From positions 1 to 49,103 of the IMG/VR virus record IMGVR_UViG_3300042396_000220: a stretch of DNA of 49,103 nt. The stretch is one strand, 5' to 3'. Below, in pieces: positions 6,559 through 39,585 of the stretch. The stretch comes from a virus. Below the pieces are notes generated by a model. That model ran no database searches, was not told the DNA's origin, and worked only from the letters and a program-made list of their open reading frames with translations. The stretch's first letter is position 1; every line of letters begins with the position of its first letter. The position numbers and the translations under genes were made by a program.

Positions 6559-7404
6559 ATGCCAAAAGCTTACGGGTACTGCCGTGCCAGCACTGGAAGG
6601 CAGGACCTCACCTTTGACGTACAGAAAGCTGCCATCGAAAGATACTACGAGGGCAAGCTGAAACAGGAGGGGTTTGAGTGGGGCGGGGCCTATGAAGACA
6701 AGGATGTTTCAGGGGCCCAGCCATTCACTGAGCGGCCGAAGGGCAGAGAGCTGTTTGTTCTGGCTCAGCCGGGGGATGCGATTATCTGGCACAAAATGGA
6801 CAGGGCTTTCCGAAGCGTGATGGACGGTGCCAATACCTTCAACCTGCTCAAGACCAAGGGCATTGCAGTTCACTCGCTCGACATTCAGTTGGACACAAGC
6901 ACGGCCATGGGTTCTTTCGTGTGCCACTTGATGATGCTGCTCGGGGAACTGGAAAGATCGTGGATCAGCACCCGTACAAGGGAGGCACTGGAGGCACGGA
7001 AAGCACGGGGTCTGCCGCCGTCTTGTTCGCTGCCGCCCGGATGGAAGTCGATTGGCGTCGGGAAAGAAAGGCACCTTGTCCCTGACATAAGGGAACGCCA
7101 GATCATTGAGATGGTCCGTGCCAAGTTTTTATCCGGCATGACGCTGGAGAAAATCTCAAACGAGCTTTACTTCAAGAAGATCAAGCGGATTCGCAATAGC
7201 CCCACGAAAAGAAAGGCGACTTCGGAGTACGACCGCCAGTTCCTAGAGTTCTCCCTGATGGCAAGGGCAGAAGGGTATCCAGTGACCGCGTCCATAATGG
7301 CGTGGAAAAAAACTATTGGCAAAGTCAAACTGACCAAGCCATTCAGGGTGAGGCTGCTGGAAATGGAAGAGCAACACGCTCAAGCAAGCGGTTCATCTTC
7401 GTAA
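6559..7404 (+). CDS. serine recombinase (resolvase/invertase family)
   Basis: 281 residues, ATG after TTAGGAGG. The N-terminal domain has YGYCRASTGRQ with the catalytic Ser at residue 11, IIWHKMDRAFRSVMDG and a helix-E region (GELERSWISTRTREALEARKARG), as in the resolvase catalytic domain PF00239. The C-terminal part is short and basic, with a likely HTH (LSGMTLEKISNELYF), and lacks the long Cys-rich region of large serine integrases. It may resolve, invert or mobilise DNA. It is a second site-specific recombinase besides the tyrosine integrase. The 3' end converges on and overlaps the sigma-like gene by 25 bases. Confidence 0.9.
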   Translation: MPKAYGYCRASTGRQDLTFDVQKAAIERYYEGKLKQEGFEWGGAYEDKDVSGAQPFTERPKGRELFVLAQPGDAIIWHKMDRAFRSVMDGANTFNLLKTKGIAVHSLDIQLDTSTAMGSFVCHLMMLLGELERSWISTRTREALEARKARGLPPSCSLPPGWKSIGVGKERHLVPDIRERQIIEMVRAKFLSGMTLEKISNELYFKKIKRIRNSPTKRKATSEYDRQFLEFSLMARAEGYPVTASIMAWKKTIGKVKLTKPFRVRLLEMEEQHAQASGSSS

Positions 7405-11891: not shown

Positions 11892-11937
11892 TTTTTTCGT
11901 TGTAAGGGTGCTGTCAACAGCAATCCTTGTTCACTAC
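11892..11937 (-). promoter_or_regulatory. conserved 46-nt intergenic element, copy 2
   Basis: Ungapped match to the element at 9875-9920 with 36 identical positions in five blocks. Its first block contains the TAG stop of the helicase gene. It lies upstream of the uncertain 93-aa gene and the ExoX-C-like gene. A possible GCCCC...GGGGC hairpin lies just downstream. Confidence 0.7.
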
Positions 11938-13502
11938 TTCGCTGTGTTCCAACGCTCCTCGTTTGCCTTGCGATCAATGGCATCCTTGAACGCCTGCTTC
12001 CACATCGGAGTCAAGCGGGCCTCCTTCAATGCCCACCTCAAATAGTCCACGGGAATCTGCGACAGGGGCTGGCCCTTCCACTTGCCGAAGGGGGCACGAA
12101 ACTCCCGCCGTCTGGGAGTGTCGCGGTCTGGTCGGCCGAAGGGGTCGTGGTCGTAGCTGTCGAACGTGACGCCCAGCACCAGCCCCTCACGACGCTTCCG
12201 CTCCGTGTCTCTCTGCAGGCGGGCGGCTTCTCGCTCGGCTTCCATCTCGGCGGCAACGGCGGCGTCGATCTCTTCCAGCGTGGCCTCGTCCTTGAGGCTG
12301 TCTCGGACCTTGATGCGGATGTCCTTCTTCTGGTCGCAAAGAACGTCCAGAGCGGTGCATAGCTTGTGGCAACGGCTGGAGTCGGTCAGGTCGTGGACAA
12401 TAAAGAAGGGCTTGTCGCTGGCTGCTATAGCCGCCTTCCGCTCGGCTGCGGTCTCAAGGCCGTCCGTCACCCCGGTCAGGTTGCGGGTGCCCCGGCCAAT
12501 CATCTGCGTGTACTTGTTCAAAGCCTTCGTTGGCTTGGCAAGGAAGATTTCCGACACGGGCGGGTGATCCCATCCCGTGGTCAGGATGCCTACGTTGATG
12601 ATGACTTCCCGTTGCCCAAGCATGAAGCACTTGAGTTCCTCCCGGTACTCTTCTTCGGACTGATAGCTATGCACCAAGCTGCAATGCAGCGAGTGGCGGT
12701 CCAGCATCAGGTCCCTAAGCAGAGTCGCTTGCCTGACCGAATGGGCGAACACTAAGGCTGGCTGCTTAGGCTTGTGGTTCTGGACAATCAGTGCAGCTAT
12801 GTCGTGAAGGACTTCTTCCGCCCTTAGGATTTGGTCTAGCTCCTCAGGGTTGAAGTCCGACGATGCCTTTTTCGCCAACTTCGACAGGTTGATGGACTTG
12901 ACGTAGTGAACCTTGACCTTGGGTGGACAGAGATAACCCTCGTCAATCGCCCTGCGGAGGGAAAAGCAGTAAGAAATCTTGTCGTAGAACCCAAGGAGCG
13001 AAGCCTTGTCTGCCCGGTAAGCCGTGGCAGTGCAGCCAAGGACCCTCGCTCCCCCGTCCACCAACTGCTGCAAGATGTCACGGGCCTGCATGGTGAAGCC
13101 CCAGTGGGCCTCGTCCACCACAACCAAGTCCACCTTGCCGATGAACTTCTTGTACCTGTCGTGCCTAAGAAGGGTCTGCCAACTGGCCACCACAAACTCA
13201 GTCTCGGGCAGGGCACTGAGATCAGCCTGCTCAATGTCAGGTTCGCAGTTCCTCAACGAGCGAATCGTCTTTACGGTCTGCCCAATCAGTTCGATCAGCG
13301 GAACGATGACCAGAGTTCTGGCCCCCTCCCGGGGCAACAGGACAAACGTCCGCGTCTTGCCTGTGCCGGTCGGGAGTTCCAGAAGCAGCTTCTTCAAGCC
13401 TTGCCGCCAGTCCGAACGCAAAGCAGTGATCGCCTCCTTTTGGTAGTCCCTAAGAAGGTGATCAAAGAGTGGCAGGGATTGGCACTTTGCTGGTGGCTTC
13501 AT
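11934..13502 (-). CDS. SF2 helicase with C-terminal ExoX-C-like domain
   Basis: 522 residues from the ATG at 13502, which has GGGGGTG upstream; a longer frame to 13547 lies in the preceding gene. Walker A GTGKT near residue 46-50, DEAH at 130-133 (VVVDEAHWG), a TATA motif (LGCTATAYRAD) and a C-terminal helicase domain with QMIGRGTRN, as in SF2 UvrB/RecG/RAD25-type phage helicases. The tail carries APFGKWKGQPLSQIPVDYLRWAL, the ExoX C-terminal domain. Probable role: DNA unwinding or remodelling in recombination and replication. Its start overlaps the stop of the 171-aa ORF (ATGA). Confidence 0.9.
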   Translation of the reverse strand: MKPPAKCQSLPLFDHLLRDYQKEAITALRSDWRQGLKKLLLELPTGTGKTRTFVLLPREGARTLVIVPLIELIGQTVKTIRSLRNCEPDIEQADLSALPETEFVVASWQTLLRHDRYKKFIGKVDLVVVDEAHWGFTMQARDILQQLVDGGARVLGCTATAYRADKASLLGFYDKISYCFSLRRAIDEGYLCPPKVKVHYVKSINLSKLAKKASSDFNPEELDQILRAEEVLHDIAALIVQNHKPKQPALVFAHSVRQATLLRDLMLDRHSLHCSLVHSYQSEEEYREELKCFMLGQREVIINVGILTTGWDHPPVSEIFLAKPTKALNKYTQMIGRGTRNLTGVTDGLETAAERKAAIAASDKPFFIVHDLTDSSRCHKLCTALDVLCDQKKDIRIKVRDSLKDEATLEEIDAAVAAEMEAEREAARLQRDTERKRREGLVLGVTFDSYDHDPFGRPDRDTPRRREFRAPFGKWKGQPLSQIPVDYLRWALKEARLTPMWKQAFKDAIDRKANEERWNTAK

Positions 13503-14014
13503 TGGGCACCCCCTAGTCGGGCAGGACCTGAGATAGGGAGTGGCCAATTTCCTGCATCTTGCTGCGGCTCCTCCCGATCCACCGGCTCCTCGCCTGCTCT
13601 TCTGTCCAAGAGTTCTTGATAAGGTCCCGGAGCCTCTGTATCTCTCTTTCGTCGGGGTCTTTTTCCCTTGCCTTTTCCAGTGCCCTTGGCCTCATCACCT
13701 TCCGTTCGTGGAGCATCCGATAAATCCCTTTCCTGCTGAACTGCTGGTATGTCATCTGAACCTGATACACGCTCATCCCCGACTGGTAATCCGAGATGAT
13801 TTGCTCCTGCCAATCCGGTGGTATCTCCTGACCATGCGCGATCATCTGTCTGCTCTCCTAGGAAAGAGTTGGTGTGTTGATCCAAGGCCGCCCGCACGAC
13901 ACGAAGTTCCGCGAACAGCATTGGGACTGCCCGCATCAGAATCAGCGGAAGCTGGTTCAGGTCGCTGTAGACGATCAGCCGCTCTAGCTGGTCAATCTCT
14001 GCGTCAGACATCAT
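13499..14014 (-). CDS. hypothetical protein, 171 aa (overlaps nested HTH-like gene)
   Basis: ATG preceded by AGGAGGTGGCC. The first about 55 residues (AEIDQLERLIVYSDLNQLPLILMRAVPMLFAELRVVRAALDQ) form a convincing helical domain with no competitor frame. The rest overlaps the 110-aa gene completely and reads as a basic, disordered tail (KGTGKGKGKRPRRKRD). Its TGA overlaps the helicase ATG in the four-base ATGA arrangement used for coupled genes, which argues that the full frame is used. Family unknown. Confidence 0.55.
   Translation of the reverse strand: MMSDAEIDQLERLIVYSDLNQLPLILMRAVPMLFAELRVVRAALDQHTNSFLGEQTDDRAWSGDTTGLAGANHLGLPVGDERVSGSDDIPAVQQERDLSDAPRTEGDEAKGTGKGKGKRPRRKRDTEAPGPYQELLDRRAGEEPVDREEPQQDAGNWPLPISGPARLGGAQ
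13513..13845 (-). CDS. HTH-like protein, 110 aa, nested in an overlapping frame
   Basis: ATG with AGGAGA about ten bases upstream. MIAHGQEIPPDWQEQIISDYQSGMSVYQVQMTYQQFSRKGIYRMLHERKV has the look of a resolvase-type HTH. The rest is basic and helical. It lies wholly inside the 171-aa ORF in another frame. It shows more natural composition than the overlapping part of that ORF, but both have ribosome binding sites. Confidence 0.6.
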   Translation of the reverse strand: MIAHGQEIPPDWQEQIISDYQSGMSVYQVQMTYQQFSRKGIYRMLHERKVMRPRALEKAREKDPDEREIQRLRDLIKNSWTEEQARSRWIGRSRSKMQEIGHSLSQVLPD

Positions 14015-14675
14015 TGGCCACCTCCTGCTTGATGGCCTTGCCGTACTTCTTCCGCAGCCGCTTGCAGTCGGCGGCAGTGACGGCCCCCTGCTCAACGAGA
14101 ATGTCGAGGTGGTGCAGGATCAGAGTGACCTGCTCGACGTTGTCCTTCTCCTTCTCAAGCTTGGCCTCGGCCCGCTTGATGAGGTCGCTCTTGGTCTCCT
14201 CGACCGGAGCCTCGACAGGGGCAGCGGCTTCTTCAGCAGGGGCTGCTGCAACGGGCTGCTCGTCGCCAGCCAGCCAGCCACCAGCCAAGCACCGGAAGAG
14301 AATCTTCTGGGCGTAGGTGCATTGGATTTCAAACGTCTGGATGCCCGGCCGATCCTCAGGCGTGAAGCCCAGCATCAACGGGCACACACAAGACACCCAC
14401 TCCCCGCTCTCATGGTTCAGCCGACCGACCATGACCCAGCCATGAACGGCTTGGAATCCGGTGAGGAACGTCGGCATGGTGAAGCCGTTTGCCAGCAACG
14501 ACGGCAGAAGGGCATCACAAATGTCCTTGAGGGTGGCGTACCGGAATCCCTCTTCCTTGTTCTCACCGCTCTTGGCAATCGCCTTGTAGGTGGCCTGAGC
14601 CTTCCGCAACGCTGCGGTAAAAGACTTGGTCTCAGGCGAACTACTCACTCCGCTCAGTCCGTGATCCAGTTGCAT
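14004..14675 (-). CDS. ERF-family single-strand annealing protein
   Basis: 223 residues; ATG with AAAGGAGAG upstream, inside the 3' end of the exonuclease gene. KAQATYKAIAKSGENKEEGFRYATLKDICDALLPSLLANGF and the Trp/Gly-rich beta segment ending in GIQTFEIQCTYAQKILFRCLAGG follow the ERF pattern (PF04404). An Ala/Pro/Glu linker and a charged helical C-terminus follow. It works with the adjacent exonuclease: the nuclease resects, ERF anneals, as in Red/RecET-type systems. An alternative GTG start nearer the domain is possible but lacks a ribosome binding site. Confidence 0.85.
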   Translation of the reverse strand: MQLDHGLSGVSSSPETKSFTAALRKAQATYKAIAKSGENKEEGFRYATLKDICDALLPSLLANGFTMPTFLTGFQAVHGWVMVGRLNHESGEWVSCVCPLMLGFTPEDRPGIQTFEIQCTYAQKILFRCLAGGWLAGDEQPVAAAPAEEAAAPVEAPVEETKSDLIKRAEAKLEKEKDNVEQVTLILHHLDILVEQGAVTAADCKRLRKKYGKAIKQEVANDV

Positions 14676-15657
14676 TTCTGCTCTCCTTTAGAACCCAACG
14701 AGGAACAACCAACTCCGTAATCTGGCCAGCATCCGGCTGGTTCCAGTGGTCGATAAGCAGCCGCGTCTTGAGGTCTATGCGTGTAGACCTGAGGTCACGA
14801 CGGGCTGACTTGAGAAGCTGCTCTGGCAGCACAACTGCGTGGCACTCATAGGGAGGCACGGTTGACGAGAGCAGGAAAACAAACTTGGTTGCCGGTATGC
14901 CTGCGGCTCTTGCACCCGACAGGTAATGCTCGGCTTGGAATGCGTATCCGTAATCAATGACGGATCGCCAGAAGGTCTTGAGCGGCTGACGTTCCTTTGT
15001 GGTTTTTAAATCCCACAGGAACGTGGCAGCACACGCATCAGGACGGCACTTCAGCTTGAGGCCGGTCTCTGGGTCTATCCACCGGATGCTGAACTCACGG
15101 TGTTCTGTCTGCTCTTGAAGCCGCCCAAAGATCGGGTTGGCCAAGATCGCATCGAACTGCCTGTGATACGCCTCAGCTTCTTCAACGGACAGACAGATGG
15201 CATCGGCACTCTGGCCTGCCAGCCACTCTTCGGTCTTCTTGGTGCGGCGACCATCAGCCCCAAGGACTTCCTTGGGAATGACAACTACGCGGCCCCACCA
15301 AGCACTGGGCCCTTGCTCGGCCCATTCGTGAACGTGCGTTCCCTTTACAAGGGATGCCCCGAATGGGTTACTTATCCCGCCAGAGATATACCGGCCGTGG
15401 AAGTACAGCGGGCCGTTGGCCCACAAGTCCCATAGCTGGCTCTTGCTCCACCACTCCTTGTCGGCGTGGTAGGCATTGATCGGCTCATCAAACCGGAGAG
15501 CAGTAGTAGCGGCGGCCGGACTCGAACCGGCGACACCCGGCTTATGAAGCCGGTGCCCTTGGGGGGTGAGGCCACCCGAAGGTTTTGCCTCGTCGTGGTG
15601 GTTTTCGCCCCCCAAAGCCGAACTATTGTCTCTTTTTACGCAAGGAGACAGTTCCAT
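14641..15657 (-). CDS. RecE-type PD-(D/E)XK exonuclease; frame runs through attP
   Basis: The conserved part starts at FDEPINAYHADKEWWSKSQLWDLWANGPLYFHGRYI and continues with CRPDACAATFLWDLKTTKE (the D...ExK-like core, here D..K) and FQAEHYLSGA, matching the RecE-type nuclease family (DUF3799, PF12684). It partners the ERF gene that overlaps its end. The start is uncertain: between the conserved part and the ATG at 15657 the only in-frame alternative start is a TTG near 15618, and the frame reads straight through the tRNA-like attP, giving a leader of about 50 residues. The ATG has only a distant GGAG and overlaps the integrase ATG head to head. The functional start could therefore be non-canonical. 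Confidence 0.8.
   Translation of the reverse strand: MELSPCVKRDNSSALGGENHHDEAKPSGGLTPQGHRLHKPGVAGSSPAAATTALRFDEPINAYHADKEWWSKSQLWDLWANGPLYFHGRYISGGISNPFGASLVKGTHVHEWAEQGPSAWWGRVVVIPKEVLGADGRRTKKTEEWLAGQSADAICLSVEEAEAYHRQFDAILANPIFGRLQEQTEHREFSIRWIDPETGLKLKCRPDACAATFLWDLKTTKERQPLKTFWRSVIDYGYAFQAEHYLSGARAAGIPATKFVFLLSSTVPPYECHAVVLPEQLLKSARRDLRSTRIDLKTRLLIDHWNQPDAGQITELVVPRWVLKESRNATGSRTERSE
15507..15555 (-). other. attP core: 3' half of a tRNA (anticodon CAT)
   Basis: On the - strand: anticodon arm CCGGC-TTCATAA-GCCGG, variable loop GTGTC, T arm GCCGG-TTCGAGT-CCGGC, then CGCCGCT and A as acceptor strand and discriminator base, ending at 15507. Expected 5' acceptor AGCGGCG and a D arm are absent; the sequence upstream is unrelated. 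So it is a partial tRNA (tRNA-Met or tRNA-Ile2 type). Next to a tyrosine integrase, such a 3' tRNA segment is the normal attP identity block that restores the host tRNA gene on integration. Confidence 0.88.
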
Positions 15658-16519
15658 GATCGACGTAGCACTCCATTATTGCAGTGAAAGAGACCTGTCG
15701 GCAGATTACCGGCAAGCGTTGACAAGAGTGGCCCGCTCAATGCAGGCCAGCGGCATCACTCCGTTGACGCTTGAAGACTCCGTGTTCAATCGGTGGCTTC
15801 TGGGGGCCGCGCCGTCGCAGTCCACCACACGATCCAACTACAGGCGGATGGGGCTCACACTCTGGCGGGCCGCACTCGACTTGCAGTTGGCGACTCATCG
15901 TATCGGAAGGGTTGCCAGAGTCAAGTGCCGGGTTGCACCGCCCGTTGCATGGTCGGCCAGCGAACTTTCCCGGCTGCTGTCTCACGCAGAGCAGATGACC
16001 GGCGTGTTCCGTGCCAGCGGTTGTCCGCAGAGCCTTTTCTGGCGGGGCTGGATTCTCACTGGCTACGAAACCGGCGTTCGTTTCAGAGACCTTCACTATC
16101 TGCAGGCCAACCAGATGCGGGACTGCCGACTGTGGGTGGTCCAGCACAAGACGGGCCGACCGCTCGGGAAGCAGCTTTCTGCAAATTGCCAAAGTGTCCT
16201 TTGCGATCTTGCAAAGCTTTCTACAGACGGCTCCCTTTTTCGCTGGGCCCTGAGCCGAAAACACGTTTTCTTGCATTTCCGAAAATTGGTGAAAGACGCT
16301 GGTCTTGCTGGGTCGAGCAAGTTCCTTCGCCGCAGTGGGGCCACGGCAGTAGAGATGGCCAGCCCCGGAGCGGCCAGCAAATTTCTGGGTCATCTGTCAC
16401 CCGGACTAGCAGCAAAGCATTACCTTGATCCTACCCTGTTGGCAGAGCGGCAACCCTCGCCGCCTCCAATCTGCGTCACTCAAAGTAAGACTGCGGGTCC
16501 GTCCGTCGCTTCTTCGTAG
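15656..16519 (+). CDS. int: tyrosine recombinase (phage integrase)
   Basis: 287 residues; ATG with AAGGAGA upstream. An N-terminal core-binding domain is followed by the catalytic domain: R142 in TGYETGVRFRDL (box I), K165 in HKTGRP, R225 in KFLRRSGAT (box II, where the usual first His of HxLRH is Lys222 and the second His is Arg226), H246 in LGHLSP, and the nucleophile Y256 in KHYLDP. It lies about 100 bases from the tRNA-like attP, so it almost certainly integrates at a host tRNA gene with anticodon CAT. It is the only + strand gene in this half. Its 3' end overlaps the 1212-aa gene tail to tail by 44 bases. Confidence 0.92.
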   Translation: MIDVALHYCSERDLSADYRQALTRVARSMQASGITPLTLEDSVFNRWLLGAAPSQSTTRSNYRRMGLTLWRAALDLQLATHRIGRVARVKCRVAPPVAWSASELSRLLSHAEQMTGVFRASGCPQSLFWRGWILTGYETGVRFRDLHYLQANQMRDCRLWVVQHKTGRPLGKQLSANCQSVLCDLAKLSTDGSLFRWALSRKHVFLHFRKLVKDAGLAGSSKFLRRSGATAVEMASPGAASKFLGHLSPGLAAKHYLDPTLLAERQPSPPPICVTQSKTAGPSVASS

Positions 16520-37374: not shown

Positions 37375-39585
37375 TTAGTAAGCCGCCTTCCAGCGAATGC
37401 CAGAGAATGTTGCCTCGCTTGATCGTGCGCCGGGGCTGCATGAAATGTCGCGGTTTTTATTGCTAACGGTGCAGAAGCCATAGGTAACGGCAGTCCCAAC
37501 GAGCCGCATGGCAAGCGGATAGCTGGCTTCAAGTTCCGCCAGCGGAAACTGTGGCGGCAGACGCAGCGGCACCCACGAGCCGCTGCCAGCACCGAATGAC
37601 AGGGTGCCCTTGAGTTCAATGAAGCCACCGATCATCCTCGCTTGAATCTCGGTAGAGACAGACTCCCTCGCCCCATCCATGCGCACCATCCATGTCCAAT
37701 CAATGTCGGGCGGTGGTGCCTTGGTGCCACCCACCAGCATCAGCTTCACCTCATCCAACACAGACTTCTTGAAAGCGGCCAAGGCAGGATCGTTGATCGA
37801 AGGCGAGGCAATCGGGTTGATAACCGCCAGCTTTGAGTCGATTTCCGGCTTCGTGTAGGTGTCTGCCGTCTTTGCATACGGGGCCAGTTCGTCCTTCTGC
37901 ACGAGGATGCCAATATCGGCCAGCGTCAGGAACTTCGCGTCGGCCTGATCCTTCGTGTAGGTCTTGGTATCGACGTACCCAAACACTTCCGCCTTGGTTG
38001 CCCAGACTGCGGTCAGGTCCGACTTGAGGACGTACCGATCATCAGCTTCGGCTCGTGTGTAGATGCTATCGAAGACTGATTGAAGCTGGACCTGCAAGAG
38101 GGACACTGCTTCAGCGGTGCGGGCACCATAACGTGCGTCGGCATCCACCTGAGTGATGTAGGGGGACAGGTCAACGGTCGGAGCGGCTTTGCTCTCCAGC
38201 GTGGTCAGACGCTCCTTGATGGGCTCAAAGTCAGACTGATACGGGATCAGTTCCTTGCCGCCCGGGGTATCAAGCACAAGACGGGGGCCGTAGCCCTCAT
38301 TGGTGTCGGTGTAGACCAAGCCGGGATTGCTCGTAGAGATGGCATCACCAAAGGTGTAGCCCTTGGCGACCATGCCGTTGACTACCAAGTTCTGGGTGTT
38401 GTCGGCCTTCTTGGCATACCGATCATCGCTCTCTGCCCGGGTGTAGATGCTGTCGAAGACTGCCTGAAGCTGGGTGGTGATGAGCGTGGTTGTGGAAATC
38501 GGGGCATAGCCAGAGAGGTCAGCTTGCGTTGCCAGATGGCTGACAATTCCCCCGTCGTTCCACCCCAGCTTCCAGTTGTCGCCTTCCTTGACTGGGGCCA
38601 GAGACAAGCCGCCCTTCCACGCAATCGGGGACATGGCATCCCCGGTGAACTTGATCGCAGAGGGTTCGATCTCGACATCCCGGATGGCATCCAAAACGTC
38701 AATCTGGCCGGTGCCAATGTCGCCGCCCAGATTGGAAACAATCTCTTGGAGAGAGGTGATGCTTGCCAGAAGCACGTTGTCGTTGGCAATGCTGAAGTCC
38801 TTGTCGGCATCCAGCTTGGCATCGACTTCGGACTTGTTGTAGGTGTCGGACTTGTCGGCTTTGAGGGCGATGGAATCGCCAAAGGTCTTTGCCACCAATT
38901 GCAAGTTGGAATCAGCTTGCTGGAAGTAGGTGTCAAGCTCAACGTCAACTTCCGTCTTGGTGTAGGTGTCGGTCTTGTCTGCCTTGAGGTCGAGGGCCGC
39001 ATCAACCTCTGGCTTGGTGTAGTAGCCAGAGAGGTCAACAGTGCCGCCGGTCAGGGCGAAGATGTCCACCCTCTGAGGATTGCCGAAAGGCTTGTTCAAC
39101 TCATCGCTGGTCAGCTTGAGCCATTGGCCTTCAGCCGTCTGCATGACGATCATGGACGGATTTTGGGGAGTGGGCAGACCCGCTTCCGACTTGACGATCT
39201 TGGCGAAGGAACTCAATTGGCCGGTGAGCGTGATCGTGGTCTGGTATTCCTGCCGCGTAATGGACACAAGGGTGCCAACGTCCTTGAAGTAGTGCAGCCC
39301 GTCATCCAGAACGGCAAAGGCATCTTCCAGCCCTTGAGGCGTTTCGGCCCCAGCGTCAGGCACCGCACCCTCATGGAGGGTAATGGCCGACTCTGGGATC
39401 GTAGCCAGAGCGTCGTTCAAGTCAGTGAGGGTAGCCAGACCCGTCAGGTCCGTTGCCGGGATGGCCGCAATGGCATCGGTGACAAACTGCTCTGTCGCCA
39501 GACCAGTCGTGTCCACTGAGCCGCCAGCACCACCGGCTGCAACCCACTGACCGTTTGACTTGACGTAAAGCTGTTTAGCACACAT
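37375..39585 (-). CDS. long tail fibre with repeated YTKxEVDxxL motifs, 736 aa
   Basis: ATG overlapping the end of the 276-aa fibre gene by 11 bases. The body has many short repeats of the form DLSGYYTKPEVDAALDLKADKTDTYTKTEVD, typical of T4/T5-type fibre shafts; the segments FDSIYTRAESDDRYAKKAD and FDSIYTRAEADDRYVLKSD show an internal duplication. The C-terminal about 115 residues (from PPPDIDWTWMVRM) are paralogous to the end of the neighbouring 276-aa fibre. Probable receptor-binding fibre. Confidence 0.8.
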   Translation of the reverse strand: MCAKQLYVKSNGQWVAAGGAGGSVDTTGLATEQFVTDAIAAIPATDLTGLATLTDLNDALATIPESAITLHEGAVPDAGAETPQGLEDAFAVLDDGLHYFKDVGTLVSITRQEYQTTITLTGQLSSFAKIVKSEAGLPTPQNPSMIVMQTAEGQWLKLTSDELNKPFGNPQRVDIFALTGGTVDLSGYYTKPEVDAALDLKADKTDTYTKTEVDVELDTYFQQADSNLQLVAKTFGDSIALKADKSDTYNKSEVDAKLDADKDFSIANDNVLLASITSLQEIVSNLGGDIGTGQIDVLDAIRDVEIEPSAIKFTGDAMSPIAWKGGLSLAPVKEGDNWKLGWNDGGIVSHLATQADLSGYAPISTTTLITTQLQAVFDSIYTRAESDDRYAKKADNTQNLVVNGMVAKGYTFGDAISTSNPGLVYTDTNEGYGPRLVLDTPGGKELIPYQSDFEPIKERLTTLESKAAPTVDLSPYITQVDADARYGARTAEAVSLLQVQLQSVFDSIYTRAEADDRYVLKSDLTAVWATKAEVFGYVDTKTYTKDQADAKFLTLADIGILVQKDELAPYAKTADTYTKPEIDSKLAVINPIASPSINDPALAAFKKSVLDEVKLMLVGGTKAPPPDIDWTWMVRMDGARESVSTEIQARMIGGFIELKGTLSFGAGSGSWVPLRLPPQFPLAELEASYPLAMRLVGTAVTYGFCTVSNKNRDISCSPGARSSEATFSGIRWKAAY

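Follow-up and report, generated by a model that had tools for sequence, protein, structure and literature searches.

Reading frame and attachment site

A RecE-like exonuclease gene whose frame runs without a stop through the presumed attachment site (attP) of a phage raises the question of whether integration would cut this gene from its own start. We examined this in a virus record of 49,103 bases (IMGVR_UViG_3300042396_000220), the whole of which is called the window below. It is highly probable that the exonuclease gene contains the attP core in its 5′ part, that integration cuts the start off, and that the nuclease can be translated only from the unintegrated genome. The position of attP, the open frame, the lack of a start on the near side, 21 starts on the far side and one natural integrated junction can be read directly from the DNA. 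On the minus strand, the gene order is helicase, unnamed gene, Erf-like annealing protein and RecE-like exonuclease, and the integrase gene runs in the opposite direction:

11934 to 13547, minus strand: DNA helicase (phrog_16, E=1e-67), further downstream of the exonuclease on the same strand
14004 to 14675, minus strand: Erf-like single-strand annealing protein (phrog_155, E=7.2e-11), the next gene after the exonuclease, presumed operon
14641 to 15657, minus strand: RecE-like exonuclease ORF, 338 aa, starting at the first ATG after a TAA
15507 to 15555, minus strand: presumed attP core, the 3′ half of tRNA-Met(CAT), 49 nt (Rfam tRNA match; exact host 49-mer)
15556 to 15657, minus strand: far-side leader of the exonuclease, start ATG at 15657-15655
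15559 to 15615, no strand assigned: imperfect inverted repeat TTGGGGGGTGA / TCGCCCCCCAA between attP core and integrase
15656 to 16519, plus strand: tyrosine recombinase (integrase), 287 aa, divergent from the exonuclease, Shine-Dalgarno (SD) sequence AGGAG at 15643-15647
15897 to 15924, minus strand: promoter-like TTGACT-16-TACGAT, antisense in the integrase gene and directed towards the exonuclease, beyond attP, 267 nt before the exonuclease ATG

By sequence and fold the exonuclease is a RecE-like (exonuclease VIII) nuclease. It matches phrog_412 exonuclease VIII (E=1.6e-40), DUF3799 and, in sequence (E=1.4e-16) as well as fold, E. coli RecE (PDB 3h4r), and the phrog_412 and 3h4r matches qualify it as a RecE-family PD-(D/E)XK nuclease domain; 5′-3′ dsDNA exonuclease activity is inferred. 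Residues 1-34 make up the leader, residues ~35-50 are encoded by the tRNA half and the nuclease fold follows from about residue 50; in the AlphaFold model residues 1-49 have pLDDT<50 and a strand occupies residues 53-55. The integrase protein itself gave no Pfam match at E<=0.1, while 8 of 9 members of its alignment (A1) matched PF00589 (Phage_integrase) at that threshold and R142, K165, R225, H246 and Y256, the usual catalytic residues of tyrosine recombinases, are invariant in it.

The palindrome CATG contains both the exonuclease ATG (15657-15655, minus) and the integrase ATG (15656-15658, plus), which overlap; a weak GGAG lies 13 nt upstream of the former. The far-side starts in the exonuclease frame are this ATG at codon -34 and, as an alternative, a TTG (15615) at codon -20. 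On the near side, ATG, GTG and TTG are all missing from the 11 codons between the tRNA end and Tyr63, which is the first conserved residue; a canonical start is first met as a TTG within the fold, 43 codons past the first CAC of the core. The preliminary description of this DNA had claimed that no ATG, GTG or usable TTG lies between the attP core and the conserved part, and that the start candidates extend beyond attP up to the ATG at 15657, head to head with that of the integrase; both claims were confirmed.

The exonuclease frame stays open across the core (15507-15555). Rfam scored 15514-15575 (minus) as tRNA with 31.3 bits, and the exact 49-mer was found once in genome_contigs, in the intact tRNA-Met of a Planctomycetia MAG (L006, genome G003); with three mismatches or fewer, the core is present in 37 of the 72 genomes of that MAG's family, G003 included. 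The locus meets the description of a tRNA-targeting attP, in that a tRNA 3′ half adjoins a tyrosine recombinase and a restored tRNA is seen in a relative (G405), not in the window phage. From these core matches, the hosts of the phage group are probably planctomycetes, but the evidence is indirect.

Several further observations concern the core and its host copies. In L006 (4801-6319), an ORF resembling a tyrosine recombinase by eye points at the host tRNA-Met and terminates within it. More copies of the tRNA-Met core occur at G197:C1 97288 and 106230 and at G003:C2 47717, and the G197 pair, ~9 kb apart, may flank an island. In L045 (G133:C205), a tRNA-Met half stands beside two tandem integrases of the same family without an exonuclease in the 3.7-kb contig, which looks like the attR of another element. 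The anticodon stem-loop motif (15538-15554) has imperfect copies, 76% identical over 17 nt, at 15481-15497, inside the exonuclease gene, and at 15891-15907, inside the integrase gene; they are possibly further Int binding sites or a product of chance, and the inverted repeat at 15559-15615 could be guessed to hold Int arm sites, with no binding data in either case.

Single-protein scans found the exonuclease-integrase locus at 100% identity in two more IMG/VR contigs (G001 and G002), both identical at the match, and in no others. As contig G002 (63,041 bases) spans the entire window, links both of its ends and adds 13.2 kb absent from it, we infer a phage genome of ~62 kb, circular or circularly permuted. 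Contig G001 (45,033 bases) agrees with the first ~29 kb of the window, and its last 15.7 kb are without a match to the window. About 0.6 kb of the window (38429-39042), present also at one end of G002, is replaced by ~38 nt in G001 and at the other G002 end, and past this point G001 diverges, as in a variable tail region or mosaic strains. The window also encodes a second recombinase of the serine resolvase/invertase type (6559-7404, 281 aa). Among GenBank phages, a tblastn search with the integrase gave no match and the terminase found two distant records.

Relatives of the exonuclease

A first profile, made from the exonucleases of the window and G405, identified 19 loci. Since one of the search patterns fell within the tRNA-encoded stretch, two further profiles without tRNA letters were run; both were built from attP-bearing members, and the sample is that clade and not all exonucleases. 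These two scans yielded 23 exonuclease clusters below ~90% DNA identity, the window counted. Left out of the counts were near-duplicates (L179, L181, L183, L184, L191 and L192) and re-fetched copies (L194-L197, L199, L200, L204-L210, L214, L215, L218, L220 and L221), and L219 was merged with L212. The loci are related and the profiles derive from attP members, hence the counts are neither independent nor unbiased.

A tRNA half lies within the exonuclease frame in 21 of the 23 clusters (window included), and in all 21 an integrase of the same family is found on the far side of the core, reading away from the exonuclease. The arrangement is retained down to ~30% exonuclease identity. The tRNA is tRNA-Met in 19 of the 21 loci, with 15 loci using frame 0 and four (L190, L198, L201 and L203) using frame +1. 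L202 and L222 carry another tRNA half, read as Gly and His respectively and likewise in frame with the exonuclease; the names were assigned by eye, ARAGORN agrees for L202, and neither half reached the Rfam gathering threshold. Well-supported branches of the exonuclease tree force at least three changes of the +1 tRNA-frame label, and L189 and L190, a supported sister pair, do not share a tRNA frame.

The two clusters without a tRNA half are L212/L219, nested among the attP members and provided with a local ATG, and the distant L223. The 3.5-kb flanks fetched for L212/L219 revealed no integrase of the family, and this lineage appears to have lost attP. A sigma70 promoter spotted by eye in L212/L219 failed the scan.

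Exonucleases of the same order without attP served as controls. An ATG or GTG lies within 20 codons of the domain in 22 of 22 rows reaching the N-terminus, and these rows have no tRNA-arm motif in the 800 nt upstream; two of 24 rows (L236 and L241) were dropped, the N-terminus not being reached, and near-copies (L226/L244 and L229/L230/L231) were kept. Members of the family elsewhere start shortly (~6-16 codons, by eye) before the same Tyr, about where attP is now placed. Among the matches listed for at least 78 other viral exonuclease loci, no same-strand tRNA-arm motif was present in the searched stretch. In L241, a tRNA-arm-like motif precedes the match by 179 nt, and L083, another viral exonuclease locus, has a tRNA-arm motif on the opposite strand.

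A class-wide integrase search was positive in 39 of 397 genomes, four of them with an exonuclease match too, and the scan with the integrase alignment contributed two distant loci. In three planctomycete genomes, two to three integrase relatives are clustered on one contig (G206:C92, G331:C187 and G399:C261).

Far-side starts and the leader

All 21 distinct attP loci possess an in-frame ATG or GTG beyond attP, whereas the 251 codons between tRNA end and first conserved Tyr in these loci hold no ATG or GTG and only three TTG. Of the 20 loci with a known integrase start, 10 show the far-side start overlapping it in the same register; in others the far-side start lies in the spacer. An SD match is positioned 6-8 nt before it in L193, L187, L189, L190, L201, L222 and L188 (no shuffle control), good examples being AAGGAG-7-ATG in L189 and GGAGGT-6-ATG in L190; the spacing is 11 nt in seven close relatives of the window, SDs are poor in L178, L185, L198 and L216, and L203 has none at the chosen start.

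A shuffled window leader remains open in 27% of trials, and the open leader alone is therefore no proof; it is the comparative set of 21 loci that raises it above chance. The leader, 21 to 183 nt long, is open in the exonuclease frame in 21/21 loci versus 5/21 and 4/21 in the other frames, plain shuffling predicting 8.9 of 21, and stops before the core number 0 in 666 codons versus 21 in 660 and 27 in 645. The start was picked inside the exonuclease ORF, which biases this test towards the exonuclease frame. In 12 loci with the interval beginning at or near the integrase start, the leader is open in 12/12 versus 2/12 and 1/12; this set comprises the window (WIN), L177, L178, L180, L182, L211, L213, L216, L217, L186, L202 and L203, 11 of them within 2 nt of the integrase start and L186 23 nt nearer the core, with integrase starts taken from tblastn alignments.

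Uncorrected pN/pS from protein-guided alignment is 0.55-0.97 for the leader in seven pairs and >1 in two pairs (7 and 12 codons), and 0.15-0.63 for the body in the same nine pairs. For L193/L187 it is 0.21/0.38 in the leader and 0.04/0.26 in the body, and for L182/L213 0.30/0.31 and 0.16/0.52. An open frame in 21/21 loci combined with high leader pN/pS indicates that frame and start are kept and the leader sequence hardly. The preliminary description had named a lack of protein-level conservation before attP (15556-15657) as a refuting finding; this condition is fulfilled for the amino acids, which are hardly conserved, but not for frame and start, as this part is open, in frame and start-bearing throughout.

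Any promoter preceding the far-side start sits, by position, beyond attP. A site similar to the promoter-like one of the window, with the same spacer, lies 266-269 nt into the integrase gene in 10/10 members of its lineage (window and nine close relatives). Within the 225-300 nt zone, such a site occurs in 11 of 20 integrases (L222 left out) versus 1.0 expected when synonymous codons are reshuffled, and within 300 nt of the exonuclease start in 16 of 21 loci versus 1.2 expected by plain shuffling; the scan did not find it in L185, L188, L190, L203 and L222. Given a single-locus chance of up to 0.25 and the relatedness of the loci, the site counts as supporting evidence only.

The integrated form

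One relative was found in integrated form. In G405:C271 (L165), a complete tRNA-Met (7007-7082, minus) is followed directly by an exonuclease homologue, with 35% identity over 296 residues and beginning inside the tRNA, and then by an Erf-like gene; G405 also encodes a terminase 60% identical to the window terminase. Alignment of the host flank with other genomes of the family stops at the tRNA end (87% over 1559 nt to L148). Followed upstream through the tRNA 3′ half, the exonuclease frame meets a TAG in the tRNA 5′ half, five codons ahead of the core, and it has no ATG, GTG or TTG until codon +164. The preliminary description had proposed that integration separates the nuclease gene from its start and fuses it to a host tRNA, and had suggested inspecting integrated relatives for the frame; this junction supports the proposal, in a relative and not in the window phage. 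The integrase end of G405 was sought and not found, and it is the sole integrated relative. A hairpin of -36.6 kcal/mol stands right behind its tRNA, at the start of the exonuclease linker (L165, ~6967-7002), and by analogy might possibly act as an insulator against read-through from the tRNA.

For the 19 tRNA-Met loci (L202 and L222 left out), virtual attL sites were formed by joining host tRNA 5′ halves in silico. All 19 carry a TAG 19 or 6 nt before the anticodon arm, and 14 have no start before the Tyr; a start remains in the other five, a TTG in L213 and L186 and a GTG inside the tRNA in L198, L201 and L203.

Proposed mechanism and alternative explanations

While the genome is free (circular or infecting), the gene would be read from a promoter and a start on the integrase side and straight through the tRNA half, and the resulting nuclease would carry a disordered leader at its N-terminus. 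Upon integration at the tRNA, start and promoter would remain at the integrase end and the exonuclease body would be fused behind the host tRNA, whose 5′ half would supply a stop and no start; the gene would then be off until the phage leaves the chromosome again. This might guard against read-through from the tRNA promoter yielding nuclease in the lysogen, and might couple the recombination genes to excision. With its own ATG (14675) retained, the Erf-like gene could still be transcribed from the tRNA promoter. That the far-side start is used, that a promoter lies beyond attP, that the gene is silent in lysogens and that this brings a benefit are all inferred, without RNA, ribosome or protein data.

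A start downstream of attP, unaffected by integration, would remove the need for the far-side one, and the preliminary description had named a non-canonical codon after 15507 as the finding that would refute it. The candidate is ATC at 15480, three codons before the conserved Tyr; in its favour, other family members have starts ~6-16 codons before this residue (by eye). Such codons are unmatched in relatives, the residue being Asn and not Ile in L177, L186 and L217 and the near-cognate codons of G405 lying at other positions; moreover, no SD was noticed by eye, and a start here would delete the first strand (53-55) of the predicted fold. We consider a start at this codon very unlikely. The lack of a near-side start would also be expected if the arrival of attP had deprived the gene of its start and left it to decay, but the frame is full-length, body pN/pS is low (0.04/0.26, L193/L187), the arrangement persists down to ~30% identity, and the Asp, Asp and Lys of the nuclease motif are invariant across 13 exonuclease relatives; decay is largely refuted and has hardly any standing left. 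The ORF at 15372-15575 in an alternative frame was considered as a possible frameshift source of the exonuclease and set aside, with no slippery site noticed by eye.

With the start placed beyond attP, it remains to be asked whether its separation from the gene is of use to the phage. We are inclined to think, without great assurance, that in this clade integration itself serves to turn Red-like recombination genes on and off: only an excised or infecting genome would yield the exonuclease, and selection would have kept the attP cut through several changes of tRNA frame and target. The split could also be passive, integrase, attP and exonuclease forming a compact ancestral module of no regulatory value, with lytic genes repressed in lysogens anyway; we regard this as a serious possibility that falls somewhat short of probable. 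One integrase family and one gene order in 21/21 loci mean that much may be common descent, and there is little constraint on the leader. On the other hand, several switches of tRNA frame and of tRNA left the exonuclease in frame, and the lineage with apparent attP loss (L212/L219) has a local ATG, which indicates that the far-side start matters for making the protein but not that silencing is useful.

Relation to known systems

The exonuclease shares fold, catalytic motif and a neighbouring annealing protein with the RecE/exonuclease VIII family (phrog_412, DUF3799), but members without attP start just before the conserved domain (22/22 evaluable rows). Mycobacteriophages of the BPs type are described as having attP in the repressor gene, integration removing the C-terminus and the short form being active (PMC4557955). 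The preliminary description had drawn a likeness to such repressors, and it holds in that attP lies inside a phage gene whose product integration alters; it does not extend further, as here a lytic exonuclease is cut on its 5′ side and loses start and promoter, and the defining feature of integration-dependent immunity, attP in a repressor ORF, is missing. Archaeal suicidal integrases (SSV1, pTN3 and pT26-2) likewise have an att site translated within a protein and a gene split by integration (PMC8371274). Unlike in these, the integrase (15656-16519) lies entirely on one side of the core and does not qualify as suicidal, and it is the RecE-like exonuclease that is split, in what is apparently a tailed bacterial phage. 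In Tn916, genes at one end are expressed only once circularisation has linked them to a promoter at the opposite end, and an insulator (terminator) blocks host read-through (PMC11658703). A promoter-like site beyond attP might allow a similar joining of gene body and promoter, with no transcript data, but whereas the Tn916 genes are parted from a promoter, here start codon and reading frame are cut too.

In a full-text literature search, from which subscription literature was largely absent, no title or abstract start dealt with an exonuclease gene cut by attP. Cutting of the 5′ end of a recombination exonuclease by attP thus looks new, and given this partial coverage its novelty is provisional. 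Editing of genes by integration, known from repressors and archaeal integrases, would then also reach a recombination nuclease, and the affected side would be the 5′ end. In prophages, such exonucleases may be given a wrong start by gene callers. Furthermore, two tRNA frames, probably three tRNA targets and one apparent loss provide natural variants for testing the tie between recombination and integration state. The arrangement suggests a way in which a phage placed behind a constitutive tRNA promoter may avoid nuclease production in the lysogen.
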